The notes under the pieces are model-generated. The model was not told the origin of the DNA, ran no database searches, and worked only from the letters and a program-made list of their open reading frames with translations. Source: Streptomyces sp. MMBL 11-1 (GTDB taxonomy: Bacteria > Actinomycetota > Actinomycetes > Streptomycetales > Streptomycetaceae). From it: a DNA stretch of 64,000 nt. Below are positions 40,734 through 64,000 of the stretch, one piece after another (position 1 is the stretch's first letter; the number at the start of each line of letters is the position of its first letter). Made by a program: the position numbers and the translations under genes. The stretch covers positions 3,408,501 through 3,472,500 of the forward strand of contig NZ_CP117709.1 in NCBI RefSeq assembly GCF_028622875.1, given 5' to 3'.

Positions 40734-41744
40734 TCACCCCGTCGGCAGATCCGTCGGAAGGGCGGCGGCGCCGTCCTTGGTGACCCGTGTCGCACCGAAG
40801 TAATCCGGCGTATCGATCTTGTCGAACCGGATGACCGACCCGGTGAACGGCGCGTTGATCATATAGCCGCCCCCGACGTACAGCCCGACGTGCCGGATCG
40901 CACGTGAGTTGGTGAGGTCGTCGGAGAAGAACACCAGATCCCCCGGGAGCAGCTCGTCCCGCGAGGGATGCGGGCCCGCGTTGTACTGGTCGTTGGCGAC
41001 GCGCGGCAGTTCGATGTCGACGGTCCGGTAAGCCGCCTGGGTCAGCCCCGAGCAGTCGAACCGGCCCTGCTGCTCCGGCGTCCCGTTGCCGCCCCACAGA
41101 TACGGCGTGCCGAGCTTCTTCTGGGCGAAGTAGATGGCCCCTGCCGCCTGCTTGGAGGGCGCGACACGGCCGACGGGCCGGGCGAAGCTCTTCTCCAGCG
41201 AACGGATGATCTTGACGTAGTTCTGCGTCTCCCTGTACGGCGGGACGCCACCGTACTTGATCACCGCGTAGGCGCCGGCGTTGTACGCGGCGAGCATGTT
41301 GCTTGTCGGGTCGCCCGGCACCTTCTTCACGTACCCGGCGAGCTCGCAGTCGTACGAGGCGGCCGAGGGGATCGCGTCGGCGGGGTCCCACACGTCCCGC
41401 TTGCCGTCGCCGTTGCCGTCGATCCCGTGCGTGGCCCACGTACCGGGGATGAACTGGGCGATGCCCTGCGCGGCGGCGTGGCTCTGCGCCCGCGGGTTCC
41501 AGCCGCTCTCCTGGTACAACTGCGCGGCCAGCAGCGCCGGGTTGATGGCGGGACAGAGGTCGCCCCACTTCTGCACCAGCGGCTGGAACCGCGCCGGGAC
41601 CGCCCCCTTGGCCAGCGCGACGGCACCGCCGCCCCCCGATCCGGCGAGCCCGGCGGCGGCGGAGTACGTACCGACGACGAGCAGCGCCAGGAAGCACATG
41701 ACCATGCCGACGCCGATGCCACCGAACACCCAGAATTTCCGCAC
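40734..41744 (-). CDS. bifunctional peptidoglycan hydrolase: SLT transglycosylase plus NlpC/P60 (VirB1-like)
   Basis: 336-aa membrane-anchored wall hydrolase. One N-terminal helix (VFGGIGVGMVMCFLALLVVGTY) is followed by a lytic transglycosylase domain (AAQLYQESGWNPRAQS with catalytic Glu, AQGIAQFIPGTWATHG, MLAAYNAG) and a C-terminal NlpC/P60 peptidase (Cys in RFDCSGLTQAAYR, His in IRHVGLYVGGGYMINAP). The SLT-NlpC combination is the standard wall-opening enzyme of Gram-positive conjugation/T4SS loci. It lies at the left edge of the T4SS-like locus described here, which supports that role. GTG start. Confidence 0.9.
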   Translation of the reverse strand: MRKFWVFGGIGVGMVMCFLALLVVGTYSAAAGLAGSGGGGAVALAKGAVPARFQPLVQKWGDLCPAINPALLAAQLYQESGWNPRAQSHAAAQGIAQFIPGTWATHGIDGNGDGKRDVWDPADAIPSAASYDCELAGYVKKVPGDPTSNMLAAYNAGAYAVIKYGGVPPYRETQNYVKIIRSLEKSFARPVGRVAPSKQAAGAIYFAQKKLGTPYLWGGNGTPEQQGRFDCSGLTQAAYRTVDIELPRVANDQYNAGPHPSRDELLPGDLVFFSDDLTNSRAIRHVGLYVGGGYMINAPFTGSVIRFDKIDTPDYFGATRVTKDGAAALPTDLPTG

Positions 41745-41880
41745 CCCTCAACCATCCCCCATCGGGGCGCGCTTCAGAGCCGTTTTCGACGGTGTGTACG
41801 AGTCATCCGCAGCACACCACCGGCGCACCCGCAGCACACGGGGGCGCCGACGGCTCACCGGCACCAGGGGTGACGCGGCC

Positions 41881-42465
41881 TCAGCCGCCCTCCCCCGACC
41901 AGAAGTCCGACCGGACGTTGGGGCGAGGCAGCGGATAGACGTCCTTGTACGCCGGGCCGTTCGGCTCGGTGGTGGGTGCGGCGACCTTCGACTCCTTCAC
42001 GCACGGGCTGTCGGCCTCCAGGAAGGCCTGCCCCTTCCCCCGGAAGGAGACGCTGACACCGAATCCGCTCTTCGTGACCGCGTAGACCGCCGGGAACTTC
42101 TCGTCCTTGTTGACCGCCTTGATCCGGTAGTCGTTCTTCCGCCAGAACGACTCCGCGCGGTCCAGGAACGTCTGACGGAGTCCGGGGGAGATGACCGTCA
42201 TGACGGCCCGCCGACGGGTCACCCCGCAGGCCCGGGTGGTGGTCGGCCCGTGCGCCCACCGCACATCGGGGTCGATGCCCTTCAGGACCGCGTCCAGCAT
42301 CGCGTCGGACTGCTCCGCAGCCTCCTGCATGTCCATCCCGCGCTCCTTTCCGGTGCTCACGCCGCCCTCGTGCGCGCTTCCGTCCTCGCTCCCGCACCCG
42401 GACAGCACCACCCCCAGGGCGAGGACGACCGCGCCGAGGGGCAGGGCCCGCTTCGCTCGACTCAC
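41881..42465 (-). CDS. lipoprotein paired with DUF1023 hydrolase (copy 1)
   Basis: 194-aa predicted lipoprotein. GTG 42465 has GGAGG 7 nt upstream and overlaps the hydrolase stop (GTGA). Lipobox LSGC (Cys about 20), then MDMQEAAEQSDAMLDAVLKGIDPDVRWAHGPTTTRACGVTRRRAVMTVISP, a middle part with ESFWRKNDYRIKAVN and the end PRPNVRSDFWSGEGG. Two Cys (GPTTTRAC and DSPC) may pair. It is clearly paralogous to the protein at 45134-45691, which follows the second hydrolase. Unknown function; perhaps an immunity or chaperone-like partner of the hydrolase. Confidence 0.82.
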   Translation of the reverse strand: MSRAKRALPLGAVVLALGVVLSGCGSEDGSAHEGGVSTGKERGMDMQEAAEQSDAMLDAVLKGIDPDVRWAHGPTTTRACGVTRRRAVMTVISPGLRQTFLDRAESFWRKNDYRIKAVNKDEKFPAVYAVTKSGFGVSVSFRGKGQAFLEADSPCVKESKVAAPTTEPNGPAYKDVYPLPRPNVRSDFWSGEGG

Positions 42466-44978
42466 TTCGGTTCCTCCATCTTGAGCCGGTCGGCGTTGCC
42501 CGACACGATCAGGGCGATGCTGTCCGCGGACACGGCGTCGCGTTCCGGGCTGAAGTAGTTCGAGTGCGAGTCCAGACTGATACCGCTCCCGCTGACGAGC
42601 GGCGGACCGTCGGCCACCGGGAAGCGCCGCGCCCCGAACGCCTTGCTCGCCGGATCCTTCCCGAACCACAGGTCGTCGTCACCCGGATCGGCCAGATCGC
42701 CGGCCAGATAGGCCCCACCGGGGCCGCCCAGGGCGAGCCCGATGCCACCGACCACCACCTGGGTCTTGGAGGGCAGCTTGGTCACCGGGTCGTTGGCGGC
42801 GGCCCCCACGAAGACGTGCTCGCTGCCGACGCCGAGGTCCACGGCGTGGTCGACGCCGACCCCCGGACTGCCGACCAGGATGATGTCGTCGACCCCGGGA
42901 ATCCCGCCGGGCCGGGCCGCCGCCGCGCCCACGGTCCGGGACCCGTAGGAGTGCCCGATGGCCGTCATGTGCGGGTCCGTGTTCTGGTTGGTCACGGAGA
43001 TCCCGCCCATGAAGTCGCGGTAGGCCGCTCCGCCCTTCTCGGCGCGCCCCGTGCCCATGACGGCGAAGTAGCCCGCCGCCCCGTCCTTGTCCGGCAGCTG
43101 CGGCGCGTCGTACCCGAGCCAGACGATGGACGCCGTGGAGTCGTCGTACCCCTGCGCCCCGATCGCGGTGTCCCGGGCGCGCCCGATGTCGTTCTTGGCG
43201 AACTCCTCGTCGAGCGAGGTGTTGAGCCCCGGTACGTACGCCGACACGTGCTGGGAGGCGTCCGGGTTGCCGAACGAGACGATGGCCCGCCCGTTGCCCT
43301 CGTCACCGATCCCGATGAGATACATCGGCGGCTTGCCGTCCTCCTTGAGCTGCCGGTCGATCTCCCGCAGCCCGGCCAGCTGGTCACGCGCCTTGTCGGT
43401 GTCGACCCCCTCCAACTTGTCGATCAGCGCGGGGAGATTCCTGCGGTTGGCGGCGTCGCGCGCGAGGACCGGGATGCCGTCGAGGTTGCCGATCCGTTCC
43501 GGCACCAGCTCGATGTACCGACCGCGCTCCTCCGGCGAGAGCCCGTCCCACCAGGCCTTGTTCCCGGCCGGCGTGGCGTTCTGCGGAATCCGCCCGCTCA
43601 GGTGCGCGCGCTCGGCGTCCCGCACCTCGGCGTCGACCCGCGCACCGGAGCCGGGTATCGCCAGCCCGGCTCCGCCGACCGCCTTGTTCCAGTCCCAGGC
43701 GGCGCCGACGTAGTCACCGCGCTTCCACTTCTCACCCGCGCCCCGGGTGTCGCGCCCCCACTGGTCGACGATGCGCTGACCGCTCTCACCGGGCCGCAGG
43801 ACCGCGTCGACGACCCCTTGGAGGTCACCGCCCAGCCCGTCCCCGAGGAACCCGTCGAGGAAACCGCCGCCGTTGGGGCCAGGGGGTCTACCCGCGTCGA
43901 CCGGCACGATGACGTCGGCCGGGGGGAAGGCGTCGCCGCCGTGGTTGCTGTCCTGGTCGCCGCTCTGGCCGCTGTCCTGGTCGCCGCTCTGGTCGCGGCC
44001 CTGGGGGGACGAGGCGTTGCCCTGGGGGCCGGCGGTGTCACCGGAGCCGTTGCTGCCGTTCGCGGCGGTGCCGCCGGTGCCGCCAGTGCTTCCGGAGGTC
44101 GCGGCCCCTTCGGTGCCACCGGTGGCACCGCTGGCACCGCTGGTACCGGTGCTGCCGGTGCTGCCGGTGCTGCCGGTGCCACCGGTGAGGCCGGACTCAT
44201 CACCACCGCCACCACCGCCACCATCGGCACCAGCACCGCCGTCCGTACCGGCGCCCGAAGCATCATCGTGACCACTGCCGTTGCCGCTGCCGTCGGCGCT
44301 TCCGCCACCGGCCACGACGTCATGCCCAGGCGCTGGGCACGAGCCACCGGTCAGCTCGCAGATCGCACTACGGATCTCCGCGGTGAGCTGCCTGCCGGTT
44401 CCCGTGGCCATCAGCCCGCCGACGAGCGCGACGACCACGAGGACGAGGCCCAGATACTCCAGCGCGGTCTGCCCACCGTCGCGGCGGAGCTTCATCATCC
44501 GGGCGAAGCTGAACAACCGTTGCTCGACCCGCTGCTCCCGGCCGCTCCGGAACCACCGGCGGCTCCCCGGCCGGCACAGCAGCACGATGGCGGCCGTCGG
44601 TATCGCCAGCCGGGCGACACCCCCCGCCCCGGCCCCGCCGCTCAACTCCGCGAGGGCACCGAGAACGATCCACGCCTGAACGGCGAGGAGCCCGTACCAG
44701 ACTCGGACGCCGCCCTTACGGACGTACAGCGACAGCACGAAGGCGCCGATGCCGGGTAACGACGCGTAGAGCAACAACCCGAGGAAGTACCCGTCGACCG
44801 CGTCCACCGAGGACGCCGTCGACAGGGCCCTGATGCCGCCCACCAGGGTGGCCACGAAGAGAACGTGAAGGAGGATCAGCACCGCTTGCAACGGCCGGGG
44901 CATCAACCGCCCTGGATCCGCTGCGGCAGCGCTTACATCGACGCCGACAGGGACCGCGCTTCTTCGTATGCCGGACAA
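42462..44978 (-). CDS. DUF1023 alpha/beta-hydrolase fused to membrane and pilin-like segments
   Basis: 838 aa from TTG 44978 (AGGGGA upstream); ATG 44903 is an alternative. Order: three or four hydrophobic helices (about 25-145); RRDGGQTALEYLGLVLVVVALVGGLMAT (about 165-195), which looks like a TadE/Flp pilin-type class III signal segment; a Gly/Ser/Thr/Asn-rich linker of about 150 residues with GST repeats; a helical segment; then the DUF1023 alpha/beta-hydrolase domain with nucleophile Ser 677 in AIGHSYGSRT and conserved VGSPGVGVDHA. The C-terminal half is paralogous to the gene at 45691-47512. No substrate is known for DUF1023. It lies in the T4SS-like locus. Confidence 0.82.
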   Translation of the reverse strand: MSGIRRSAVPVGVDVSAAAADPGRLMPRPLQAVLILLHVLFVATLVGGIRALSTASSVDAVDGYFLGLLLYASLPGIGAFVLSLYVRKGGVRVWYGLLAVQAWIVLGALAELSGGAGAGGVARLAIPTAAIVLLCRPGSRRWFRSGREQRVEQRLFSFARMMKLRRDGGQTALEYLGLVLVVVALVGGLMATGTGRQLTAEIRSAICELTGGSCPAPGHDVVAGGGSADGSGNGSGHDDASGAGTDGGAGADGGGGGGGDESGLTGGTGSTGSTGSTGTSGASGATGGTEGAATSGSTGGTGGTAANGSNGSGDTAGPQGNASSPQGRDQSGDQDSGQSGDQDSNHGGDAFPPADVIVPVDAGRPPGPNGGGFLDGFLGDGLGGDLQGVVDAVLRPGESGQRIVDQWGRDTRGAGEKWKRGDYVGAAWDWNKAVGGAGLAIPGSGARVDAEVRDAERAHLSGRIPQNATPAGNKAWWDGLSPEERGRYIELVPERIGNLDGIPVLARDAANRRNLPALIDKLEGVDTDKARDQLAGLREIDRQLKEDGKPPMYLIGIGDEGNGRAIVSFGNPDASQHVSAYVPGLNTSLDEEFAKNDIGRARDTAIGAQGYDDSTASIVWLGYDAPQLPDKDGAAGYFAVMGTGRAEKGGAAYRDFMGGISVTNQNTDPHMTAIGHSYGSRTVGAAAARPGGIPGVDDIILVGSPGVGVDHAVDLGVGSEHVFVGAAANDPVTKLPSKTQVVVGGIGLALGGPGGAYLAGDLADPGDDDLWFGKDPASKAFGARRFPVADGPPLVSGSGISLDSHSNYFSPERDAVSADSIALIVSGNADRLKMEEPK
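44110..44200 (-). repeat. 9-bp coding repeat in the hydrolase linker
   Basis: GCTGCCGGT/GCTGGCACC-type 9-bp units encode GSTGSTGSTG and related Gly/Ser/Thr peptides in the linker of the fused hydrolase. Confidence 0.7.
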
Positions 44979-45133
44979 GAGCAGTCCCCTACCTCGTGAG
45001 TGGGCGGAACGGGCGACAGATCAGTCACTCCGCGTATGCGACCACACAGGCAGGGGGCACGACATGGGCCCCAGGGCCCAATGCAGGGCTCAAAGCCCGT
45101 ACACACTCAACCAGTTGAGCCAACCTGCCCTGA

Positions 45134-45691
45134 TCACGACCTTCTCGCCGCCACCTCGGGGGCGCCTGCCGACCAGAAGTCTGAGTGGATGTTGGGGCGG
45201 GGGATGAGCCGCGCTTCCGGATCGAGGAACGCTGTGGCACGACTGGTGGAGTCGGCGACTTCGGAGCGGCGGACGCAGGGGCTGTCCACGTCAAAGTGGA
45301 ATTGACCCTTGTCAGCGACAGTCAAGCTCACTTGGAACCCGTCCTGCGTCCTCACATAGATCGCGGGGGCATCAACGTGGCTGTTGATGGCCGTCACGCG
45401 ATAGCCGCTCTTCCGCCAGAACCGATCTACTAAACCCAGGAGGCTCCCCCTTCGCTGAGCAGATACGACCGTCATGACCGTCCGTCTCCGAGTGACCGTG
45501 CAACTCCCCGTCGTCGTCGGACCGTGCACCCAAAGCACGCTCGGCTCGATCTCATCGAGAACGCTGTCGAGCATGCCATCAGCGCGCTCAGCCGCATCCT
45601 GCATATTCATATCTTCACCCCGACCTCCCGCACACCCTGACAACAACGCCCCCAAGAGAATTACGATGATGATCGATCGAGGCCTGCCCAT
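45134..45691 (-). CDS. lipoprotein paired with DUF1023 hydrolase (copy 2)
   Basis: 185-aa paralogue of the lipoprotein at 41881-42465. The ATG overlaps the hydrolase TAA by one base. Lipobox LSGC (Cys about 20), then MNMQDAAERADGMLDSVLDEIEPSVLWVHGPTTTGSCTVTRRRTVMTVVSA, VDRFWRKSGYRVTAIN, VDSPCVRRSEVADS and PRPNIHSDFWSAG, matching copy 1 along its length. Codon use here is clearly less GC-biased than in copy 1 and flanking genes. Function unknown. Confidence 0.82.
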   Translation of the reverse strand: MGRPRSIIIVILLGALLSGCAGGRGEDMNMQDAAERADGMLDSVLDEIEPSVLWVHGPTTTGSCTVTRRRTVMTVVSAQRRGSLLGLVDRFWRKSGYRVTAINSHVDAPAIYVRTQDGFQVSLTVADKGQFHFDVDSPCVRRSEVADSTSRATAFLDPEARLIPRPNIHSDFWSAGAPEVAARRS

Positions 45692-47512
45692 TAACGCGTC
45701 TCTTCTCTTTGAATCCTGTTCGCGCGCCCCGCAGCGATCAATGCCATATTTTCGACCGACGTTCTATCGAGCTCGGGATCGAAGTATTCCGAGTGGGCAT
45801 CGATCGTTACCCTCCCCTCCCCAACCAGGGGCGGCCCATCCCCTACCTCGAATCGCTGCGCCCCGAAAGCCTCGCTGGCCGGATCCTTGCCGAACCAGAC
45901 ATCGTCGTCCCCTCGGTCGGCTAAACTGCCGAAGATATAAGCTGCAGCCGGTCCGCCGACCAGTGCCTCTGCCGCCCCTACGGCGAATTCGCCCTTCGAG
46001 GGAAGTTTGGTCACAACATCATTGGTGGCCGCTCCGACGAACACATGATCCCGGCCCACTCCGAGTTCGTCCGCACTGTCGACCCCAACGCCTGGGCTTC
46101 CGACGAACACGATGTCATCAACACCAGGAATTCCGCCCGGATACTGTGTAGCAGAGCCAACAGTCCGTGAGCCGTACGAGTGGCCGATCGCCGTCATGTG
46201 CGGGTCTTCATTCTCGTTCGCCGCCTCGATTCCGCCCATGAATTCGCGGAAGGCTAATCCGCCACCCTCCGCTCTGCCATCTGCAATGACAGAGAGAGAA
46301 CTGAGCCCGTCAGGCGACTGCGGTGCGTCATATCCGAGCCACGTGATTGCAGCGGCAGGCTCTCCGTGACGATTCGAAACGATGGACAGGTCACGGGCGC
46401 GCTTTAGGTCGTTCGTGGCAAACTCCTCATCCAACGAGGTGTTCAACCCCGGAACATAAGCCGCCACATTCCGCGCCGTATCAGGATTCCCGTAGGACAC
46501 GATCGCCCGACCATTTCCCTGATCCCCGATCCCGAGCAGGTACATCGGCGGCTCCCCCGCCCCCGGCACCGCCCTCAGCTGCCGGTCGATCTCGCGCAGC
46601 GCCGCAAGCTTGGTCGCCGAGTCCTCGTCGTTCCGCCCCTCCAGCTTCCCCATCAGCAACTGCAGGTTGTCCCGGTTCGCCGCGTCCCGTACGAGGGCCG
46701 GAATCCCGTCCAGGTTGCCGATCTGATCCGGGTACACCGCGAGGTACTCCTCACGCTGTTCGTCCGTCAGTCCGGCCCACCACGCCTTGCGCTCCGCCGG
46801 GCCCTCATCGTGCGGGATCGCGTTCTTCAGGTAGCTGCCCGCCGCCTGCCGCACGGCCGCCGCATCGGCCGCGGCGTCCTGCCACGTCGCGGCCGGGACG
46901 CCCAGGCCCTCCCGCGCCTTCAGCGACCGCAGGATCCTGGCGTACCGCCAGTCCGCGTCGGCCGCCGTCCGTACGGCCTGCGCCACCCGGTCCGCGATGT
47001 CCTGGGCCTTGCCGGCGTTCGGGTTGGGCGCCACGAGCCCCGAAGGGGGGGTCCATGCCCGGGTTCGGAACCCCGGACGCCGTCCCACCCGCCAGCGGCT
47101 TTCCGTCGATCAGGCCCTCGCCCCCCGCCGGATACGTCACCGAACCATCCGCGTGCACCGTGAACCTCAGCGCCGCCGCATCGTCAAGCGCCCCCTGCAG
47201 CACCCGCTGCTGGGCCTTGATCTCGTGGGCCAGGCTGTTCAACGTGGTCCGCAGCAGCCCGCACTCGGTGTAGATGTACTGGAAGTTCGTCCCCAGCCCG
47301 CGCAACCGCCTGACGGCCGCGTCCACCGCCTCCCCCTTCTGCGTATCGTGCAGGCCGGGCAGGAGCTGGCCCTCGATACGGTCCCGGGCCGCGTCGGCAC
47401 GGTTGCTCACCCGTCCCCAGCCGTCCGCCGCCTCCTCCAGTTCGGCGCACCTCACCTCGCGTAACGCGGTCCAGGTCAGGGCGGAACCCGCACCACTGCT
47501 CCGCCCGCTCAC
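45691..47512 (-). pseudogene. DUF1023 alpha/beta-hydrolase with helical N-terminus, frameshifted at a C7 tract
   Basis: Two overlapping frames encode one protein of about 606 aa. GTG 47512 (GTGA overlap with the upstream gene) starts the N-terminal part, a WXG100-like helical domain (LREVRCAELEEAADGWGRVSNRADAARDRIEGQLLPGLHDTQKGEAVDAAVRRLRGLGTNFQYIYTECGLLRTTLNSLAHEI), up to NPGMDPPFG. One C fewer in the C7 run (plus-strand G7, 47045-47051) gives GMDPPSGLVAPNPNAGKAQDIADRV and continues into the intact DUF1023 domain (AIGHSYGSRT, VGSPGVGVDSA). It could be a sequencing or assembly error, a true lesion or a phase-variable tract. The half downstream of about 46560 is AT-richer. Confidence 0.85.
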
Positions 47513-47925
47513 CCCGCGCCGCCACAGGGCGGCGTCTTCACCCCGTCGAAGCCGCTCTTCACCGCCTCGTTCGCCCGTGCCTGGCCCCGGACGACCGCCC
47601 GCAGCTTCCCGGCGAGCCTCCCGCACTCGCCGCGCGCGCCCTCGATCCGGCGCTCCCACGAGGCGCGCACGACGCTCAGTTCGGCCAGCGCGTCCAGTGC
47701 TCCGGCCCCTGTGGTCAAGCCCCGGTGCGCCGCCTCCAACTCGCTCTTCACCGGGCCGAGGTGTGTGACCAGCTGGTCGGCCCCCGCGGCGGCCCGCAGC
47801 CACGGACCGCCGCTGTGCCGAAGATCTCCGCACCCGTCCGCCCCCGCCGGTCCGGCCGGCGTCCCCCGCCGCTCCCCGCCCCCGTTCTGCGACCCGACCA
47901 CGGTTACTCCGCCCACACCGCTCAC
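47509..47925 (-). CDS. WXG100-like small helical protein
   Basis: 138-aa protein from GTG 47925 (AAGAGGA upstream). After a Gly-rich start, most of it is predicted helical: LVTHLGPVKSELEAAHRGLTTGAGALDALAELSVVRASWERRIEGARGECGRLAGKLRAVVRGQARANEAVKSGFDG. The size, helical hairpin pattern and central Trp (ASWERRI) resemble ESX/WXG100-type partners encoded before DUF1023 hydrolases, and its stop overlaps the hydrolase start. The assignment to the WXG100 superfamily is by pattern only. Confidence 0.6.
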   Translation of the reverse strand: MSGVGGVTVVGSQNGGGERRGTPAGPAGADGCGDLRHSGGPWLRAAAGADQLVTHLGPVKSELEAAHRGLTTGAGALDALAELSVVRASWERRIEGARGECGRLAGKLRAVVRGQARANEAVKSGFDGVKTPPCGGAG

Positions 47926-48498
47926 CCCGTTCCTCTTGATCGTGGAGCGGCACTGTGCCAAATCCGCGGTACGCGACATGCCGTACGCCAGCCCGCTGGG
48001 TCCCGGCTCTGTGCGCCCCCCTGCCCCGTGGATCCCGGCCGGGCAGAGCGGGGGCGCCGCCCCCCGCAGAGCCGCTCGGTTCACCCGAACGAAGGGGGAG
48101 CCGAGCACAGACGACCTCACCAGCCCCGCCCCGCGCCCCGCGTGCTGTTCCCCAAGCACGCCTGACGAAGCATCGAACAGGCAGCCGACCGGCGCACCGA
48201 CGGCTCTCGAACGGCGCATACGAACACACCGTGCCCCGCGAACGCTGCAACCGCCTCAGGAACCCATGGCCATCGTCGTTGCTCCTGGTCACACCCCGTG
48301 ATACACAGAGTAACCAGACGTATACATGAAGGGCCGGACGAGCCGCAGGTCAGGGCGACCGCCCCGGTCAAACGTGCGAGATCCGGGTAAAGAGACGCGG
48401 GAAGGCGTCGTGCGAGCGCGGTTTCATCAGCGAAGATAGAAGGCGACCCGTGCCGGACGGTACGGGCAGCGAACTACCCAATAGGGGCGGTGACTTAC
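47926..48498. other. divergent intergenic region between the two arms of the T4SS-like locus
   Basis: 573 bp. Open frames exist on both strands but none shows a conserved protein pattern or a good ribosome site. It must contain the promoters for the leftward WXG100-like/hydrolase arm and the rightward secretion arm. AGGGGCGG just before 48499 is the ribosome site of the next gene. No obvious inverted repeat or RNA was found. Confidence 0.5.
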
Positions 48499-48807
48499 AT
48501 GATCCTGGCAGCAGAGAAGGGCGACATCACCACCATCATCGGCGGAATCGCCCCGGACTGGGGGCCGTTCGGGACGCTGGGCAACGAGGCGCGCATCATG
48601 ATCGAGGTGGTGATGGCCATCGCCATTCTGCTCTGCCTCGGCATCGCGATCTGGGGCGCGGCGAAGCAGCGCATCGGAGCGACGGCACTCCGCGACACGT
48701 TCAGTGCGGAGCAGGGCAAGGGGCTGATCGTGGCAGGACTGACAGGGGTCTTCATCATCGGATCCCTGGGGACCTTGTTCACCATCGTGTACGGAATGGC
48801 TGTCTGA
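48499..48807 (+). CDS. small two-helix membrane protein, VirB2-like position
   Basis: 102-aa membrane protein. ATG 48499 follows AGGGGCGG; GTG 48490 is too close to it. Two helices: MIEVVMAIAILLCLGIAIWGAAK and GLIVAGLTGVFIIGSLGTLFTIVYGMAV, separated by a short charged loop. Size, topology and location at the head of a T4SS-like gene run fit a VirB2/pilin-type or TcpA-accessory membrane component, but there is no sequence signature that proves it. Confidence 0.7.
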   Translation: MILAAEKGDITTIIGGIAPDWGPFGTLGNEARIMIEVVMAIAILLCLGIAIWGAAKQRIGATALRDTFSAEQGKGLIVAGLTGVFIIGSLGTLFTIVYGMAV

Positions 48808-48987
48808 CCCACCATCGGCCGCTCCCCTCCGGGCCGTCCCAGCCCGTTCCCCCCATCCGCCCGTCGTGCCCACCGGCTGAGGTTGCGTTTCCCTGATGTC
48901 GAGTCACCACACCGCGCTCAAGCGGCAACCAGCACAGCTACCGTCGTCCTGCGCGGATCTGCACACGACCGAGGGAGCGAACGCGGC

Positions 48988-49854
48988 ATGAGTCCCGGTG
49001 ACGAGCACGACTACCGCGGCAAGGACCAGGGGGGCCGCCCGGAGGACCCGTACAGCACCCTCGGCGGCACCCGTCAGACCCGTACCCGTCTCCCCGACGG
49101 TGACACGGGGCTCCCTCACGCGCGCCGCCCGGTCCGCAACTCCCGCTCCCTCGTGACGGTCACCGGCGTCGTGGTGCTCCTCGTCGCTGCCATCGCCTTC
49201 GCCAACCGAGGCGGTGGCAGCGACGACGCCTCCCCGGGCGCCAAGAAGCCCGGAACCACAGGAAGCGCCCCCACCGCCGCCACCGGCACCAAGCCCGTCC
49301 AGGGCAAGAACGGCACGATCGCCTCCGGCTTCGCCCACGACGAGCAGGGGGCGCAGAGCGCTGCGGCGAACTACGCGGTGGCACTGGGGTCTGCGGAGAT
49401 GTTCATGAAGGAGAGCCGCCGCAGCATCATTCAGGCCACGCATGATCCAGCGGTGGCCTCGGATCTCCAGGACAGCCTGGACAGTGCCTATTCGCCGACG
49501 TTCTACAAGAACGTCGGCCTCAACGACGACGGCAGCACGCCCACCGGGCTGACTTTCGTCTCACGGACCGTCCCGGTCGGCACGAAGGTCGTCAAGATGG
49601 AAGCCGACGTCGCCACGGTGGAGGTCTGGTGCACCGGCCTCGTCGGGCTGGCCGGGCAAGGCTCCACCAAGCCTGTGACCGAGACCTGGTTCACCATCTC
49701 GCAGGAACTCAAGTGGGTCGGGGGCGACTGGAAGATCTCGTCGTCGACCCAGACGGAGGGACCGACACCGGTCAACGGTGACAACCGTGCCTCCACGGCC
49801 GACGAGATGGCCACTGCGGTTGATGCGTACGGAGGCTTCACCTATGCCCGATAG
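48988..49854 (+). CDS. single-pass membrane protein, VirB8/TcpC-like
   Basis: 288 aa. GAGGGAG lies upstream of ATG 48988. A polar cytoplasmic N-terminus (about 1-50; DEHDYRGKDQGGRPEDPYSTLGGTRQTRTRLPDG) is followed by one helix (LVTVTGVVVLLVAAIAFA), a Gly/Thr linker and an extracytoplasmic domain (GFAHDEQGAQSAAANYAVALGSAEMF to QELKWVGGDWKISSSTQ) of NTF2-like pattern. This topology and fold are those of VirB8/TcpC proteins of Gram-positive T4SS. The next gene starts 11 nt before its stop. Confidence 0.75.
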   Translation: MSPGDEHDYRGKDQGGRPEDPYSTLGGTRQTRTRLPDGDTGLPHARRPVRNSRSLVTVTGVVVLLVAAIAFANRGGGSDDASPGAKKPGTTGSAPTAATGTKPVQGKNGTIASGFAHDEQGAQSAAANYAVALGSAEMFMKESRRSIIQATHDPAVASDLQDSLDSAYSPTFYKNVGLNDDGSTPTGLTFVSRTVPVGTKVVKMEADVATVEVWCTGLVGLAGQGSTKPVTETWFTISQELKWVGGDWKISSSTQTEGPTPVNGDNRASTADEMATAVDAYGGFTYAR

Positions 49855-51199
49855 CCGCCGATCGCGTCTCTCATCACTGGCAGGCGCTGCAGGTCTCGCG
49901 CCTGCCGCACTGGTCTTCATGGCACCAGGCGCCTCCGCGGCTCCTACACCGACCCCGACGCCATCTCCCAGCGAGAGCGACAACCCCTGCGACCTCATTG
50001 TCGGGCTCGCCCGGGATTACTGCGAGGACGGCGAAAACGCTCGCAGCGGGTCACGCGCACCCACTGACCTCGACAATCCCACCGACCCCCTCTCCTCCCT
50101 CGCCCGAGGCTGCGCCGACGCCGCCTCCTGGATCGTCGGCAAGCTCAGCGAGGCCGTCGAGTCCACGGCCAACGTCGACTTCACCAACCCCAAGTTCCTC
50201 CAGCAGTACGCCGTCATCTTCGCGGCTTCCACCATCCTCACCCTCGTCCTCTGGCTCCTCGCCGTGGCCAAGCGGGCCATCCGCGGCGTCCCCCTCACCA
50301 CCGCGATCTCCGAGGCCGTCGGCTTCCTCTGGCTGACCGTCCTCGCCTCCGCCTTCACCCCTCTGATCCTCTACACGATCGTCTCCGCCACCGACGGCGT
50401 CACCGAGGTCATCTCCTCCGCCACCGGCGGCCAGACCGACGTCTTCTTCGGCTCGTTCGCCGAAGCCCTCAAGAAGGGCGAGGACATCGGCGGCGGACCG
50501 ATCATGCTGATCGTCGTCTCGCTCGTCTCGATCCTCGCCGCCGGCATCCTGTGGCTGGAGCTCGTCATCCGCGCCGCCCTGCTCTACGTCGGCGCGCTCC
50601 TCGGGATCGTCGTCTACGCCGGCCTCGTCGACAAGAACATGTGGGGCCACGTCCGCCGCTGGGCCGGCATCATGATCGCGGTGATCATGGTCAAGCCGGT
50701 CATCGTCATCGTCCTCGGCCTCGCCGGAGCGCTCTCCACGGGCGACGGCCCCGACGCCTTCTCCGCCGTCGTCTCCGGCCTCTCCATCATCCTGCTGGCC
50801 ATCTTCGCCTCCGCCATGATCTACCGCTTCGTCCCCGGCTTCGGCGACGAGATCCAGGGCGCCCGCACCAACCGCAAGCAGGCCACCGACGGCTCCCAGG
50901 CCGCCGCCCTGATCAGCTCCCCGGCCGCTCTCGTCTCCCAGGGCATCAAGACCCACAGCGGCCGTAACGACCAGAACAGCGGCGGAGGCGGAGGCGCCCG
51001 CCCCGCCAACCCGGCCAGCGGTGGCGTCGCCGCCCACAGCTCCCGTACCACCGGCGGAGGCGGCGGCGGGGGTTCCGCCCCCTCGCCCCGCAGTGGATCC
51101 GCACCCACCTCCGGAACCCCCCACAGCAGCCGCTCCTCCCGAGGCGGAGGCGGCTTCGGCACCACAGGTAACTCGAACACAGGAGGTGGAGGGCGTTGA
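49844..51199 (+). CDS. polytopic membrane protein, VirB6/TrbL-like
   Basis: 451 aa; GGAGG lies 8 nt before ATG 49844, overlapping the upstream gene by 11 nt. Signal-like N-terminus (to about 33), a Cys-containing extracytoplasmic stretch (NPCDLIVGLARDYCEDG), then six or so helices from about 115 to 345 (YAVIFAASTILTLVLWLLAVA, GFLWLTVLASAFTPLILYTI, LIVVSLVSILAAGILWLELVI, ALLYVGALLGIVVYAGLV, IMIAVIMVKPVIVIVLGLAGAL, SIILLAIFASAMIYRF). The tail is Gly/Ser-rich. A VirB6/TrbL-like channel protein is the best reading, supported by position before the VirB4-like genes. Confidence 0.78.
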   Translation: MPDSRRSRLSSLAGAAGLAPAALVFMAPGASAAPTPTPTPSPSESDNPCDLIVGLARDYCEDGENARSGSRAPTDLDNPTDPLSSLARGCADAASWIVGKLSEAVESTANVDFTNPKFLQQYAVIFAASTILTLVLWLLAVAKRAIRGVPLTTAISEAVGFLWLTVLASAFTPLILYTIVSATDGVTEVISSATGGQTDVFFGSFAEALKKGEDIGGGPIMLIVVSLVSILAAGILWLELVIRAALLYVGALLGIVVYAGLVDKNMWGHVRRWAGIMIAVIMVKPVIVIVLGLAGALSTGDGPDAFSAVVSGLSIILLAIFASAMIYRFVPGFGDEIQGARTNRKQATDGSQAAALISSPAALVSQGIKTHSGRNDQNSGGGGGARPANPASGGVAAHSSRTTGGGGGGGSAPSPRSGSAPTSGTPHSSRSSRGGGGFGTTGNSNTGGGGR

Positions 51200-52746
51200 C
51201 GACCCAGTCCCACACGATGACGCCCCGCCGCACGTATCTCATCGGCCGCGCCCGGCCGAACGCGATCGTCGGCAAGAACCGTGAGACGGGCGAGATCGCC
51301 CTCATCATCGCCGGCGCGTTCCTCGGCATGATGAGTGGACTCCTCGTCCCGGTCCTCTCCCTCCGCATCGTCTGCCTCGTGGGCTTCCCCATGCTGGCCC
51401 TCGCCATCGTGTACGTCCCCTACAGGGGGCGGACCTTCTACAAGTGGTTCGAGATCAACCGCAGCTTCAAGCGCTCCCTGCGCCGCGGCACCGCCTACCG
51501 CTCCGCCGCCATGGAAGCGGGCGTCAGCGCCGACGGCCGTGAGGTCGAGATCGGCCCGCCCCCGGGCATCGGCCGGATCAGCTGGCTCGCCGCCCCCTTC
51601 GGCCCCGACGAGATCGCCGTGCTCCTCCACGCCGACCGCCGCACCGTCACCGCGGCCATCGAGATCGAGGGCCCCGGCGTCGGCCTCCGCGACAGCGAGG
51701 ACCAGGAGGCGCTCGTCGACCGTTTCGGCACCCTCCTCAAGCACGTGGCCAACGGCGACGGCTTCGTCACCCGCCTCCAGATGCTCGCCCGCACCCTCCC
51801 CGCCGACCCCGACGCCCATGCCAAGGACGTCGCCCAGCGAGGCGACAAGGCGTCCCCGGGCTGGCTCCAGGAGTCCTACGACCAACTCCAGTCCATGGTC
51901 TCCACCTCCAGCGAGCAGCACCGCGCCTACCTCGTCGCCTGCATGCACTACAGCCGCGAACTGGCCGCCGAGGCCAACGCCATGGCCCGCGCCGCCCGCC
52001 CCCACGGCGGCCGCAAGCTCGACCGCGACGCCGGCCTCGCCGTCGTCATGGCCCGCGAGCTCACCGACATCTGCGCCCGCCTCGCCGAGGCCGACATCCG
52101 GGTACGCCAACCGCTCGGCCAGAGCCGCGTGGCCTCCCTCGTGCACTCCATGTACGACCCCGACCACCCCATCGACCACATCCAGGCCATGACCAAGCGC
52201 AACGCCTGGCCCGCCGAGCTGGACGCGGTCGAACCGACCTTCCTCCAGGCCAAGACCCGCGAGTCCACCACCCGCGCCCCCTGGTGCCACGCCACGGCCT
52301 GGGTGAAGGAATGGCCGATGACCCCCGTCGGCGTCAACTTCCTCGCCCCGCTCCTCGTCCACACCCCCGACGTCATCCGTACCGTCGCCGTCTGCATGGA
52401 CCTCGAACCCACCGAGGTCGCCATCGAACGCATGCTGACCGAGAAGACCAACGACGACGCCGAGGCCAGCCGGCAGGCCAAGATGAACCGCACCGTCGAC
52501 CCCCGCGACATCGCCGCCCACGGCCGGCTCGACCAGCGGGGTGAAGATCTCGCCAGCGGCGCGGCCGGAGTGAACCTGGTGGGGTACATCACGGTGTCGT
52601 CCCGCTCCCCCGAGGCCCTCGCCCGCGACAAGCGCACGATCCGCGCCTCGGCCGGCAAGTCGTATCTCAAGCTGGAATGGTGCGACCGCGAGCACCACCG
52701 GGCCTTCGTGAACACGCTGCCGTTCGCCACGGGCATCCGCCGCTGA
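51196..52746 (+). CDS. VirB4 N-terminal-like protein with PrgI-type membrane segment (SCO6880-like)
   Basis: 516 aa from TTG 51196 (TTGA overlap; GGAGG about 10 nt upstream); ATG 51217 is an alternative. Two N-terminal helices (IALIIAGAFLGMMSGLLVPVLSLRIVCLVGFPMLALAIVYV) resemble PrgI/VirB3 proteins. The rest has no P-loop and looks like the N-terminal domain of VirB4 (AVLLHADRRTVTAAIEIEG, VDRFGTLLKHVANGDGFVTRLQMLART, IDHIQAMTKRNAWP, and the end EHHRAFVNTLPFATG). It matches what is annotated in Streptomyces as SCO6880-like proteins. The ATPase half is the next gene. Confidence 0.8.
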   Translation: MTTQSHTMTPRRTYLIGRARPNAIVGKNRETGEIALIIAGAFLGMMSGLLVPVLSLRIVCLVGFPMLALAIVYVPYRGRTFYKWFEINRSFKRSLRRGTAYRSAAMEAGVSADGREVEIGPPPGIGRISWLAAPFGPDEIAVLLHADRRTVTAAIEIEGPGVGLRDSEDQEALVDRFGTLLKHVANGDGFVTRLQMLARTLPADPDAHAKDVAQRGDKASPGWLQESYDQLQSMVSTSSEQHRAYLVACMHYSRELAAEANAMARAARPHGGRKLDRDAGLAVVMARELTDICARLAEADIRVRQPLGQSRVASLVHSMYDPDHPIDHIQAMTKRNAWPAELDAVEPTFLQAKTRESTTRAPWCHATAWVKEWPMTPVGVNFLAPLLVHTPDVIRTVAVCMDLEPTEVAIERMLTEKTNDDAEASRQAKMNRTVDPRDIAAHGRLDQRGEDLASGAAGVNLVGYITVSSRSPEALARDKRTIRASAGKSYLKLEWCDREHHRAFVNTLPFATGIRR

Positions 52747-52784
52747 CAAGGCATCACCCCCACCGCGACCACCCGCAGAAGACC

Positions 52785-52850
52785 CACAACCGCCCCACCA
52801 CCCCAACCACTCCAACAACCGCGACAACCGCGACAACCGCAACCAGAGAG
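52785..52850 (+). repeat. short CCAAC/CAACCGCGA tandem repeats
   Basis: The 115-bp gap between the VirB4-like halves contains ACAACCGCG repeated three times (near 52816-52843) after several CCAAC units. Confidence 0.7.
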
Positions 52851-52861
52851 GGCACCCCACC

Positions 52862-54280
52862 ATGCGAGACCCCCTGTCCGCATTGTCGGATGCCTTCACC
52901 TCGTTCCTCTTCGGCAAGGTGGAGACGACCCGCCTCCCCGTCCGTACGTCGACGGGCCAGGCCCAGGCCGTCTACCTCCCCACCGCCGCCCCCGGCCTCG
53001 GCGACTCCGGCGTGATCATCGGCCGCGAGGTCTACAGCGGGAAGGGCTACATCTACGACCCCTTCCAGCTGTACGGGCAACAGCTCCCCGCCCCCCACTG
53101 GCTCGTCCTCGGCGAGTCCGGCAACGGCAAGTCCGCACTGGAGAAGACCTACGTCCTGCGCCAACTCCGCTTCCGTGACCGGCAGGTCGTCGTCCTCGAC
53201 GCCCAGGGCGAGGACGGCGTCGGCGAATGGAACCTCATCGCCCAGGAGCTGGGCATAACCCCCATCCGGCTGGACCCCACCGCAGCGCTCAACGGCGGCA
53301 TCCGGCTCAACCCCCTCGACCCCTCCATCACCACCACCGGCCAGCTCGCCCTGCTCCGTACGATCATCGAAGTCGCGATGGGCCACGGGCTCGACGAGCG
53401 TTCCGGCTTCGCGCTGAAGGTGGCCCACGCCTACGTCACCGCGACCATCACCGAGCGCCAGCCGGTCCTGATGGACATCGTGGAGCAGCTGCGCCATCCG
53501 GAGCCCGAGTCCGCCGAGGCGATGAACGTCGACATAGACGATGTACGGGCCTGGGGCCTGGACGTCGCCCTGGTCCTGGACCGCCTGGTCGACGGTGACC
53601 TGCGCGGCATGTTCGACGGCCCCACGGCCGCCGGCATCGACCTCGACGCGCCCCTCATCGTCTTCGACCTCTCGCACATCGACCGCAACTCGATCGCGAT
53701 GCCGATCCTGATGGCGATCGTCGGCGTCTGGCTGGAGCACACCTGGATCAGGCCGGACCGCAAGAAGCGCATCTTCCTGGTCGAAGAGGCGTGGCACATC
53801 ATCAACTCCCCGTTCGTCGCCCAGCTCTTCCAGCGCCTGCTGAAGTTCGGACGCCGGCTCGGCCTCTCGTTCGTCGCCGTCGTCCACCACCTCAGCGACG
53901 TGGTGGACGGAGCAGCGGCGAAGGAAGCGGCGGCCATCCTCAAAATGGCCTCCACCCGCACGATCTACGCCCAGAAATCGGACGAGGCCAGAGCGACCGG
54001 CCGGGTCATCGGCCTACCCCGCTGGGCCGTCGAGATCATCCCGACCCTCACCCCCGGCATCGCCGTCTGGGACGTCAACGGCAACGTCCAGGTCGTCAAA
54101 CACCTGATCACCGAAGCCGAACGCCCCCTGGTCTTCACCGACCGCGCCATGACCGAGGGATCGGCGGACGACATGCTCCCCGACGACATCCGCGCCGCCG
54201 AACTGGAGGCGGAGCAACGGGCGGCCCGGATCGAACACCAGCAACGGATGAACGAGTCGTCAGAGTCAACGGTGGCCTGA
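52862..54280 (+). CDS. VirB4-like T4SS ATPase (ATPase half)
   Basis: 472 aa. It begins with a region typical of the middle of VirB4 (VETTRLPVRTSTGQAQAVYLP, VIIGREVYSGKGYIYDPFQLYG), then Walker A in HWLVLGESGNGKSALEK, FRDRQVVVLDAQGED, GGIRLNPLDP, Walker B RIFLVEEAWHII, and the late VVHHLSDVV/ILKMASTRTIYAQKSDEA motif. It would energise secretion at the inner membrane. It lies 115 bp after the N-terminal-like half, so VirB4 seems divided between two genes. It is followed within 1 nt by the VirD4-like gene. Confidence 0.88.
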   Translation: MRDPLSALSDAFTSFLFGKVETTRLPVRTSTGQAQAVYLPTAAPGLGDSGVIIGREVYSGKGYIYDPFQLYGQQLPAPHWLVLGESGNGKSALEKTYVLRQLRFRDRQVVVLDAQGEDGVGEWNLIAQELGITPIRLDPTAALNGGIRLNPLDPSITTTGQLALLRTIIEVAMGHGLDERSGFALKVAHAYVTATITERQPVLMDIVEQLRHPEPESAEAMNVDIDDVRAWGLDVALVLDRLVDGDLRGMFDGPTAAGIDLDAPLIVFDLSHIDRNSIAMPILMAIVGVWLEHTWIRPDRKKRIFLVEEAWHIINSPFVAQLFQRLLKFGRRLGLSFVAVVHHLSDVVDGAAAKEAAAILKMASTRTIYAQKSDEARATGRVIGLPRWAVEIIPTLTPGIAVWDVNGNVQVVKHLITEAERPLVFTDRAMTEGSADDMLPDDIRAAELEAEQRAARIEHQQRMNESSESTVA

Positions 54281-54281
54281 C

Positions 54282-56048
54282 ATGGCACGTCAGCCGGCGC
54301 GGGGCCGGGACAACGGGCCCGCCCACCACGACGGTTACGCCGGCCGCCCCCAGGGCGGCGGCATCCCGGACGGCCTGCTGATCGGTCTCCTGGGCCTCCT
54401 CCTCGCCGCCACCCTGGTCGCCTGGACGGCCGCCGGCCTGGCCGGGCTCCTCGCCCACGGGGCCTGGCCGGACGGCGTGACGTTCACCCGGTCCCCGCTC
54501 GCCCTGCGCGAACTGGCCACCGCCCCCCAGGACCTCGCCGCGGCCTGGCCGGGGACGCCCCCGGCGCAGCTCTCCGGATACGGCCTGTTCTGGGGCCTGT
54601 TCATCGGCGAACTGATGGTGCTGCTGGTCCTCGCGGTGTTCACGCTCGGAGTCGTGGCCCGTGGCCGTGCCGTACGGGAGCGGCGCCGCGAGGAACGAGC
54701 CTTCGGAACGCACGGGAAGCAGCCCCCCGCCGTAAGAGCGTCACCGGCCACAGAGCCGACACCGGCACCCGGCCACACAGCCGAGAACACCCCCGCGGCC
54801 GAACGCACGCCCGCTCCCGCCAGGGGAGACGCACGACACTTCACCCCCGAGGCACCGGAGGCACCGGAGGCACAGGCACCCGAGGCACCCGGAGCACCGG
54901 CGGCCCCCAGTCCCTCTGCAACATTCGGGTCCCCAGGGACCCCAGCAGCCCCTGAGACCCCAGGAACCCTCAAGACTCCAGGAACGCCCGAGACCCCCAG
55001 GCCCTCGGAGTTCCCCAGGCCCTCGGAGCTCCCCGGGACCTCTGAGATGCCCCCCGAAGTCGCCCCCTCCGCCCTCCTCCTCCCCTCCCCCCGCACCCCC
55101 CTCCTCGTGTACGCCCCCGCCCCCGCCCGGCGCCCCACCGTCGTCCGGGCCGTCCTCGACGCCGAAGGCCCCGTCCTCGTCGTCACCTCGGACCCCACCG
55201 TCTGGGCCGAGACGAAGGACGCCCGCGCCAAGCTCGGCCCGGTCCTCGTCTACGACCCGGGCCACCTCTGCGACACCCCGGCCCGCCTCCACTGGTCGCC
55301 CACCACGGGCTGCGAGCTCCCCGACGTCGCCGCCGCGCGCGCCGCCGCCCTGCTCGCCCCGGTACGCCCGCAGGCCCGGATCGACGCGGCGGTGGCCGAC
55401 ACGGCGCAGACGCTCCTCCAGTGCTGGCTGCACGCCGCCGCGGTCGACGGCCGCCCCTTCCGCCAGGTCCTCCGCTGGGCCTCCGGATCCGGCGCCCACG
55501 AACCGGTACGCCTCCTCCGTACGCACCCCAAGGCCGCGTCCGGACTCGCCGGGCTGCTGGAGTCCGCCCTCACCGCCTATCCCGAACGGCGCGAGGTGGC
55601 CCAGGAACTGACGGTACGGGCGTTCGCCGCCCTGTCCACGGTGCACATCCGCGAGGCCTGCACGGCGAACCGAGCGGATTCCCTCGTGCTGGAATCTTTT
55701 GCGCACGAAGGGGGAACGCTCTATCTGGTGGGCGAACCCATCGAGGATCCCCGCTCCCGCCCCGGCGCGATGCCCCTCCTCACCGCGCTCGCCGCAGACG
55801 TGGTCGAGCACGGCCGCCGCATGGCCGCACGGTCATCCGACGGTCGGCTCGACCCACCAATGACGCTCGTCCTCGACGACGTCGCGGCGGTGGCACCCCT
55901 CCCCCAGCTCCCTGAGCTGCTGGCGACCGGCCAGAACCGGGGCATGCCCACACTGGTGCTGCTCCGTTCCCGGGAACAGGGGCGGGCCCGCTGGCAGGAA
56001 CGCCTGCACGTTCCGGCCCCGGGCGCCGGTCAGCCGGAAGGCGCTTAG
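54282..56048 (+). CDS. VirD4/TraG-like coupling-type protein without recognisable Walker A
   Basis: 588 aa. Two N-terminal helices (GLLIGLLGLLLAATLVAWTAAGLAGLLAHG and GLFWGLFIGELMVLLVLAVFTLGVVARG) as in VirD4, then a Pro/Glu/Thr-rich region to about 265 with decaying TPGTPETP-type repeats, then a domain shaped like the coupling-protein ATPase: LVVTSDPTVWAETKDARAKLGPVLVYDPGHL, LHWSPTTGCELPDVAAARAAALL, and the Walker-B-like PMTLVLDDVAAVAPLPQLPELLATGQNRGMPTLVLLRSREQ. Where GxxxxGKT is expected the sequence reads YAPAPARRPTVV, so nucleotide binding is doubtful. Confidence 0.72.
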   Translation: MARQPARGRDNGPAHHDGYAGRPQGGGIPDGLLIGLLGLLLAATLVAWTAAGLAGLLAHGAWPDGVTFTRSPLALRELATAPQDLAAAWPGTPPAQLSGYGLFWGLFIGELMVLLVLAVFTLGVVARGRAVRERRREERAFGTHGKQPPAVRASPATEPTPAPGHTAENTPAAERTPAPARGDARHFTPEAPEAPEAQAPEAPGAPAAPSPSATFGSPGTPAAPETPGTLKTPGTPETPRPSEFPRPSELPGTSEMPPEVAPSALLLPSPRTPLLVYAPAPARRPTVVRAVLDAEGPVLVVTSDPTVWAETKDARAKLGPVLVYDPGHLCDTPARLHWSPTTGCELPDVAAARAAALLAPVRPQARIDAAVADTAQTLLQCWLHAAAVDGRPFRQVLRWASGSGAHEPVRLLRTHPKAASGLAGLLESALTAYPERREVAQELTVRAFAALSTVHIREACTANRADSLVLESFAHEGGTLYLVGEPIEDPRSRPGAMPLLTALAADVVEHGRRMAARSSDGRLDPPMTLVLDDVAAVAPLPQLPELLATGQNRGMPTLVLLRSREQGRARWQERLHVPAPGAGQPEGA

Positions 56049-60799: not shown

Positions 60800-60811
60800 C
60801 GGAAAAATTGT

Positions 60812-60928
60812 TCGGCGGCGTCCTACTCTCCCACAGGGTCCCCCCTGCAGTACCATCGGCGCTGAAAGGCTTAGCTTCCGGGTTCGGAATGTAACCGGGC
60901 GTTTCCCTAACGCAATGACCACCGAAAC
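60812..60928 (-). rRNA. 5S ribosomal RNA
   Basis: The minus strand starts GTTTCGGTGGTCATTGCG and ends near GTAGGACGCCGCCGA, with the conserved CCGAACCCGGAAG and GATGGTACTGC segments. The 117-nt length is standard. It lies behind the 23S gene in usual operon order. Confidence 0.95.
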
Positions 60929-61009
60929 ACTATGAAATTAACCAACACCGGAGAAAAACACGGCCGTTCGTTATTTCAGAACTAACACAGTGGACGCGAG
61001 CAACTGAGG
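60929..61009 (-). other. 23S-5S spacer
   Basis: 81-bp AT-richer spacer containing GAACTAACACAG, probably part of the processing stem; no tRNA is present. Confidence 0.6.

Positions 61010-64000
<2,991 letters not shown>

Follow-up and report, generated by a model that had tools for sequence, protein, structure and literature searches.

A stretch of 64,000 nucleotides from the chromosome of Streptomyces sp. MMBL 11-1 (the window; C1:3408501-3472500 of the 8.5-Mb genome) carries a type IV secretion system (T4SS)-like gene set that is, very probably, a domesticated T4SS whose coupling ATPase no longer functions. By its gene order and protein features, the set at window positions 48490 to 56048 is cmdF-E-D-C-B-A, known in Streptomyces coelicolor as SCO4131-4126 and described by Xie et al. 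in 2009 as co-transcribed genes named cmdABCDEF (PMC2782261). The reading that we favor as a whole, and to which we give an even chance, is that of a coupling-protein-independent T4SS of a monoderm, with a split VirB4 motor and a use in development. The similarity of CmdB to VirB4 and the search for a type IV-like channel had already been put forward in the 2009 paper. The available part of that paper assigns no T4SS part to CmdC-F and mentions no decay of CmdA, which is the new point of the present analysis. Apart from it, no report of CmdA decay or of a T4SS reading was found in the open-access literature searched, as judged from listings.

Gene content of the cmd locus

The cmd genes and the neighboring tgdA gene are arranged in the window as follows.

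tgdA (SCO4132-like): 40734-41744, minus strand; wall hydrolase with SLT (1e-15) and NLPC_P60 (7e-25) Pfam matches and one transmembrane (TM) helix
cmdF: 48490-48807, plus strand; protein of 105 amino acids with two TM helices and a VirB2-like topology
cmdE: 48988-49854, plus strand; VirB8-like protein with one TM helix and an NTF2-like domain
cmdD: 49844-51199, plus strand; polytopic membrane protein, VirB6/TrbL-like
cmdC: 51196-52746, plus strand; SCO6880 family protein with two TM helices (VirB3-like by position) and the putative N-terminal half of VirB4
cmdB: 52862-54280, plus strand; putative C-terminal ATPase half of VirB4 with an intact Walker A motif (Lys90)
cmdA: 54282-56048, plus strand; VirD4-like coupling protein with two TM helices, presumed dead as an ATPase

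The start of cmdE was set at the ATG at 48988, its open reading frame (ORF) beginning at 48883 in the ORF list. The six cmd genes are all on the plus strand and tgdA is divergent, across an interval of 6.7 kb. An earlier reading of the window made from the letters alone (the sequence-only reading) had described tight translational overlaps, which exist between cmdE and cmdD (11 bp) and between cmdD and cmdC (4 bp); cmdB and cmdA are 1 base apart, and the overlaps do not extend to cmdF and cmdE or to cmdC and cmdB, which are separated by 180 and 115 bases, respectively. The cluster was matched by description to that of S. coelicolor, which has the same six genes in a fixed order next to SCO4132 (tgdA), a VirB4-like CmdB with Lys90, and an SCO6880-like CmdC, all of which are present in the window. 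There is no essential difference, and we take the window as the orthologue, the S. coelicolor sequence itself not having been compared.

CmdB matched the AAA_10 (7e-13) and TraG P-loop profiles of Pfam and the solved VirB4 structure 4ag5 of the PDB (3e-6), its matches to several VirB4 models lying below the models' own cut-offs. CmdC was assigned to the SCO6880 family (NF042935, 6.8e-56). Profile searches of solved structures started from the CmdC and CmdE alignments gave nothing useful, the folds alone being informative. The AlphaFold2 (AF2) model of CmdC (62 sequences; mean predicted local distance difference test score [pLDDT], 63) returned 13 PDB matches at an E value of ≤0.001, all of them chains of entries for the R388 T4SS; 4 of these are entries for TrwK/VirB4 alone, the rest are composite entries whose chains are not named in the list, and the next match came only at 0.2. 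Because the fold of CmdC matches VirB4 entries, the model indicates that VirB4 is split between two proteins, CmdC, with its two TM helices, corresponding to the N-terminal half and CmdB to the ATPase half. The locus thereby has the VirB4 ATPase with an intact Walker A motif that is expected of a T4SS, in CmdB, with the N-terminal half coming from CmdC.

Among the other envelope components, CmdE has the architecture of VirB8, i.e., one TM helix followed by an NTF2-like domain. Its AF2 model reached block means of 87 to 97 over residues 111 to 250 (whole-chain mean, 67), and the Foldseek matches include an IcmL-like T4SS protein, PrgL, and CagV VirB8 domains. CmdD displays seven hydrophobic peaks, the first one signal-like, and the TrbL_4 profile matched 6 of 30 members of its family at a weak, sub-threshold level (best, 0.0088). 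For CmdF, T4SS_pilin matched 1 of 29 family members, at 0.075 only. TgdA, with its SLT and NlpC/P60 domains, has the composition of a VirB1-like wall hydrolase, and a plasmid relative of TgdA adjoins its own T4SS in one locus (L084). Thus, the sequence-only reading was right about the wall hydrolase, and its list of Vir-like genes stood for VirB4 (AAA_10 and 4ag5), VirD4 (TraG-D_C), and VirB8 (TM helix and NTF2-like domain), the matches for VirB6 and VirB2 being weak and sub-threshold.

Close relatives of the cmd set are found in actinobacterial plasmid T4SSs (pMDJK44.2, Rothia amarae p1, and SLP2.19-23, the last as cited in PMC2782261). These have the same order of a small TM protein, a VirB8-like protein, a VirB6-like protein, an SCO6880 protein, an ATP/GTP-binding VirB4 half, and a type IV coupling protein (T4CP), and a wall hydrolase (lytic transglycosylase/C40 or M23 peptidase) adjoins in most records, as it does at cmd. 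Unlike CmdA, the plasmid T4CPs keep Walker A, and a relaxase is typed on 3 of the 12 records.

Coupling protein CmdA

CmdA matched TraG-D_C at 23.1 bits (cut-off, 22). The P-loop of the related plasmid T4CPs (APPREGKT or GPMGSGKT) is replaced in CmdA by sequences such as APAPARRPT, so that Walker A is lost; the Glu of Walker B is replaced (Asp-Glu to Asp-Asp), and the C terminus is short. The survey of these motifs covered 90 Streptomyces loci, including the window's own copy (L001), and 37 from outside the genus. In Streptomyces, the domain is kept in 70 of the 90 loci, none of which (0/70) has GK[ST] at the P-loop; of the rest, 16 are cut off too close to the end of a contig, and 4 are N-terminal pieces left unresolved, with Ns nearby in three. 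In the other genera and families, the domain is kept in 16 of the 37 loci, a single one of which (L102) has GK[ST]. Four further loci retain the N-terminal membrane part only, 2 end too early, and no recognizable cmdA was found in 15 when roughly 4 to 5 kb downstream was looked at, which leaves the domain missing in 19 of the 35 resolved loci. Asp-Glu was present at Walker B in none of the 82 chromosomal copies covering the motif, the five rows with Asp-Glu being plasmid-type relatives. As a control, GK[ST] was found in 15 of 15 T4CPs (those of the 12 plasmid records, a pair of second copies of plasmid type, and the paralogue of the window's own genome) and Asp-Glu, by pattern, in all of these but L152 (14/15).

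On a CmdC plus CmdB tree of 55 rows, in which the row nearest to the window is S. anulatus, presence of the CmdA domain changes at least 4 times. This tree is a quick one that carried a long-branch warning for its outgroup, and its root was therefore not used; the changes are read as losses, given that the domain is present in the plasmid relatives and in those Streptomyces loci that could be resolved. The rest of the cmd set mostly persists in the other-genus loci that are devoid of it. Judged by its motifs, CmdA does not have the makings of an active VirD4 coupling ATPase and looks like an inactive remnant where it has not been lost. Since the coupling protein is without ATPase motifs or gone, T4CP-dependent export of anything is unlikely.

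Distribution and inheritance of the locus

The genus, family, and order samples overlap and include the genome of the window, and their counts are not independent. A CmdB match was found in 120 of 121 Streptomyces genomes (orthologue identity, 87 to 100%), in 81 of 81 genomes of the family, representing 17 genera (81% or more), and, for the order, in 146 of 147, among them all 14 genomes of two other families (79 to 84%). The sole miss in the genus and order samples, genome G120, is attributed to an assembly edge because its contig ends 50 bases from cmdC (97%). Of the 265 class-sample genomes that are not Streptomyces, one (G200, 77%) gave a CmdB match at an E value of ≤1e-60, and its contig (L111) carries phoU, tgdA, and cmdF-E-D-C-B in the same order.

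Synteny was assessed in 37 stretches from outside Streptomyces (L095 to L111 and L122 to L141), two of which (L110 and L130) stop before cmdF. cmdC and cmdB were found in all 37, cmdE in 36, cmdD and cmdF in 35 each, and tgdA in 34; the flanking genes phoU, PAP2, and pit were found in 21, 19, and 16, respectively. cmdD was not detected in a gap of 1.6 kb in L133. tgdA and cmdF are divergent in all 54 loci in which both were found, the distance between their alignment edges ranging from 250 to 5292 bp over the 36 loci measured and from 250 to 557 bp over the 15 of these that belong to other genera. These data point to tgdA as the ancestral divergent neighbor of cmdF. With 8 pairs per gene, the median ratio of nonsynonymous to synonymous divergence (dN/dS) was 0.06 for both cmdB and cmdC and near 0 for cmdF, which also has a median dN of about 0 and is conserved best of all parts; the values for CmdD and CmdE were 0.31 and 0.33. 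The synteny survey that the sequence-only reading had called for thus located the cmd set at one place order-wide, and we favor the view that the locus has been inherited vertically at this chromosomal place after domestication that predates the radiation of the GTDB order.

Function of the cmd set and alternative explanations

The sequence-only reading knew of no described function for this set, which overlooks the null mutants of cmdABCDEF reported in 2009. According to that report (PMC2782261), cmd nulls show defects of aerial growth, of sporulation, and of chromosome segregation, the cmdA null being wild-type-like for sporulation, unlike the cmdB-F nulls. Extra branches and collapsed aerial hyphae were described for the cmdB and cluster nulls, with 8% and 6% anucleate spores, respectively, versus 0.1% in the wild type. 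CmdB was located in the membrane fraction, and mutants with changes of its lysines at positions 90 and 404 did not complement. The primer labels given in that paper look swapped, the K404A pair covering the Walker A lysine and the K90A pair a later lysine, which is residue 413 in the window by eye. SCO4127 to SCO4131, together with SCO4132 (tgdA), were reported as down-modulators of actinorhodin in a genome-wide mutagenesis (PMC6585502), and a transcriptome study of a bldA mutant has SCO4131 (cmdF) among its genes marked "down" (PMC2000904); no TTA codons were found in the cmd genes or tgdA of the window.

The favored reading combines the homologies, synteny, conservation, and CmdA decay observed here with the published developmental and pigment effects of the cmdB-F nulls and of the CmdB lysine changes (PMC2782261). 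A conjugation-type T4SS would have been domesticated before the order radiated and vertically inherited thereafter. Its envelope half would have been kept, consisting of VirB1 (TgdA), the VirB2-like CmdF, the VirB3-like TM part and VirB4 N-terminal half in CmdC, the ATPase half in CmdB, the VirB6-like CmdD, and the VirB8-like CmdE, and substrate recruitment would have decayed, leaving CmdA as an inactive remnant or nothing. CmdC and CmdB would together form an ATP-using VirB4 motor that builds or drives a channel or short pilus-like structure, made of CmdF, CmdD, and CmdE, through a wall that TgdA opens locally. This structure would act in hyphae entering aerial growth and sporulation and would function without T4CP-recruited DNA or effectors. 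With slightly less than even confidence, we propose cmd/tgdA as the first T4SS of a monoderm that is inherited vertically and serves the multicellular development of its host without a relaxase or a working coupling protein, that is, a conduit builder with VirB4 only. According to the available part of a 2025 review (PMC12857230), functions of Gram-positive T4SSs beyond DNA transfer are almost unknown, which is called surprising, and the question is raised whether there are others. The whole word "cmd" does not occur in the main text of that review, and a search of the open-access literature for exapted T4SSs was without result. The cmd set is a candidate for such a function; it belongs to the core genome of a bacterial order, the strains are genetically tractable, and mutant phenotypes are known. 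The review also describes the T4SS of the Saccharibacteria (Southlakia epibionticum), which resembles cmd in being monoderm, non-conjugative, critical for fitness, and equipped with VirB2-like genes, and which differs from it by a VirD4-like component and an array of six VirB2-like genes, where cmd has a single small gene of this kind and its VirD4 is dead.

Several points weigh against the favored reading. The cmd channel, pilus, and substrate are proposals. Confidence in the CmdC model is middling; ARC6, a plastid-division protein and not VirB8, provides the two best Foldseek matches of CmdE, with many other NTF2-like proteins in the list, the NTF2 fold not being exclusive to VirB8; and the tentative VirB2 (CmdF) and VirB6 (CmdD) assignments rest on topology and sub-threshold profile matches. 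CmdA may keep a role, given one copy with a P-loop (L102) and residual constraint on its C-terminal domain (dN/dS of 0.28 in Streptomyces, 5 pairs). The CmdB lysine changes may have destabilized the protein, according to their authors (PMC2782261), and the segregation defect (8% anucleate spores) also fits a role with DNA. The cmd core is not wholly indivisible, since locus L095 (genome G137) has cmdF-C-B with no tgdA, cmdD, or cmdE found there and only 328 bp, free of Ns, between cmdF and cmdC; homologues of the CmdD of a sister genome (62% and 48%) are located elsewhere in G137, and the full order is present in L134, from the same genus. Finally, the missing relaxase is a weak clue because most related plasmid records have no typed relaxase either: MOB-suite typed one on 3 of the 12 records fetched (9/12 without), and of all 199 plasmid records containing a relative of CmdB, 115 are called non-mobilizable.

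The main rival is a coupling-protein-independent exporter, in which a wall or morphogen protein, probably delivered by Sec or Tat, would leave through CmdF-E-D-C-B. We consider this rather unlikely, and it is the form in which the inference of protein export from the absence of a relaxase, drawn by the sequence-only reading from what is a weak clue, survives. Some T4SSs of diderms, e.g., Ptl and Brucella VirB, export proteins without a VirD4 (PMC12857230), the wall hydrolase TgdA is part of the locus, and the defects of the mutants are of the envelope type (PMC2782261). The VirD4-less systems of diderms (Ptl, Brucella VirB, ComB, and Trw) resemble cmd in that a T4SS was kept without a coupling protein. 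They differ from it by an outer membrane core complex (PMC12857230), cmd being monoderm, vertically inherited, and tied to development, and a monoderm would have no outer membrane step comparable to that of Ptl. No conserved linked cargo gene was found at the cmd loci surveyed: the 250 to 557 bp between tgdA and cmdF in the 15 other-genus loci and the varied genes in Streptomyces argue against such cargo.

A DNA channel, in which CmdB would move chromosomal DNA at sporulation septa, is close to the idea of the 2009 authors; it ranks after the exporter, and we regard it as distinctly improbable. VirB4 is grouped with the FtsK/HerA motors (PMC12857230), and the anucleate spores of the cmdB and cluster nulls are as expected from such a channel. 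No TrwC or PF03432 relaxase lies near, however, and the coupling protein is dead or lost. Moreover, transfer of an SLP2-derived plasmid was unchanged by deletion of the cmd cluster, and the same nulls misbranch and collapse, so that the segregation defect may be secondary (PMC2782261).

Far less probable is the proposal of the sequence-only reading that the T4SS exports DUF1023 hydrolases encoded on the divergent arm as its obvious cargo. The features concerned are the following.

Accessory insertion: 41881-48219, minus strand; two presumed lipoproteins, two DUF1023 hydrolases, and a WXG-like fragment in a broken frame
DUF1023/Abhydrolase_8 hydrolases: 42462-44978 and 45691-47088, minus strand; Pfam matches of 9e-33 and 6.5e-34, respectively

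The presence of two DUF1023 hydrolases was borne out by these matches, and in favor of their export are their adjacency to cmd here and in 12 further Streptomyces loci and a pilin-like or WXG-like N terminus recognized by eye. Their distribution is patchy: they are present in 13 of 90 Streptomyces loci, including the window (69 of the 90 reach cmdF, and many of the named loci extend just ~5.6 kb upstream of it), not found in any of the 35 loci from outside the genus that reach cmdF, and not found in 33 loci with tgdA that span the whole tgdA-cmdF interval. Five of the 7 PF06259 matches in the genome are elsewhere. The median synonymous divergence (dS) is 0.81 for the hydrolase gene abh2 and 1.27 for its presumed lipoprotein (7 pairs each), about 4 to 8 times the values of cmdB, cmdC, and cmdF in the same genomes (0.15 to 0.19, 8 pairs). 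This contrast of core and arm holds for cmdB, C, F, and D (0.23) only, cmdE (0.54) falling between core and arm and tgdA (0.30) being represented by a single pair. Hydrolase paralogy may inflate dS in some pairs; in L003, which has both hydrolases, the value is still 0.59 versus 0.12 for cmdB. The dS of the WXG-like ORF (0.60) is unreliable, its frame being broken in the window, where the WXG-like N-terminal part and the hydrolase (45691-48292, minus strand) are in different frames. They form one open frame in the loci of 12 of 13 relatives, the exception being L007, and the split is either a broken gene or a sequencing error. The WXG100-like protein of the sequence-only reading was not upheld, since the intact relative (L054:2908-4701) gave only Abhydrolase_8 at an E value of ≤0.01, the window fragment's own frame not having been scanned. 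The two presumed lipoproteins are so called from a reading of their N termini and gave no Pfam family at an E value of ≤1. The hydrolases and lipoproteins are thus a patchy, later insertion outside the core machine, and the hydrolases were rejected as default cargo.

An effector bank upstream of cmdF was considered and rejected, the varied products indicating an interval that tolerates insertions in Streptomyces (41745-48489). The survey of products covered 268 predicted ORFs of 67 loci in which cmdF is separated by more than 700 bp from tgdA, or from the start of the stretch where this does not contain tgdA; some of the ORFs lie beyond the interval, as in L024 and L095. Among 10 chosen interval ORFs, Pfam identified a protein kinase with PQQ repeats, pectinesterase/pectate lyase, polysaccharide lyase 8, DUF4232, DUF402, RHS, and Abhydrolase_8; three had no match. 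In L054 and L078, at about 2.4 to 5.3 kb, the hydrolase module is in the opposite orientation and ~34% alike, and the module may have entered the tgdA-cmdF site more than once.

A recent or decaying integrative conjugative element has next to no probability and was rejected. In its favor, the relatives that come nearest without being orthologues are T4SSs of plasmids, 3 of the 12 records having a typed relaxase; against it, tgdA and cmdF-E-D-C-B are syntenic order-wide, often with phoU and pit beside them, and cmdF, cmdC, and cmdB are under strong purifying selection. As the sequence-only reading had stated for this chromosomal set, no relaxase encoded with the T4SS was found near cmd, PF08751 and PF03432 having been searched genome-wide and other relaxase families not having been searched. 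TrwC (PF08751) matches once in the genome, on contig C3, and PF03432 once, at C1:7492923, 4 Mb from the cmd locus. The same reading had named an integrase just outside the window as evidence that would count against it; the nearest PF00589 match is ~41 kb past cmdA, and the nearest PF07508 match is more than 500 kb away. The PF03432 match lies ~23 kb from a second, paralogous SCO6880-type T4SS (L114, C1:7508501-7528000), whose T4CP keeps its P-loop and which is perhaps an integrated conjugative element.

Downstream of the cmd locus, the window contains the following.

5S and 23S rRNA genes: 60810-64000, minus strand

The vicinity of these genes is perhaps the reason why many draft contigs stop a few kilobases downstream of cmdB.

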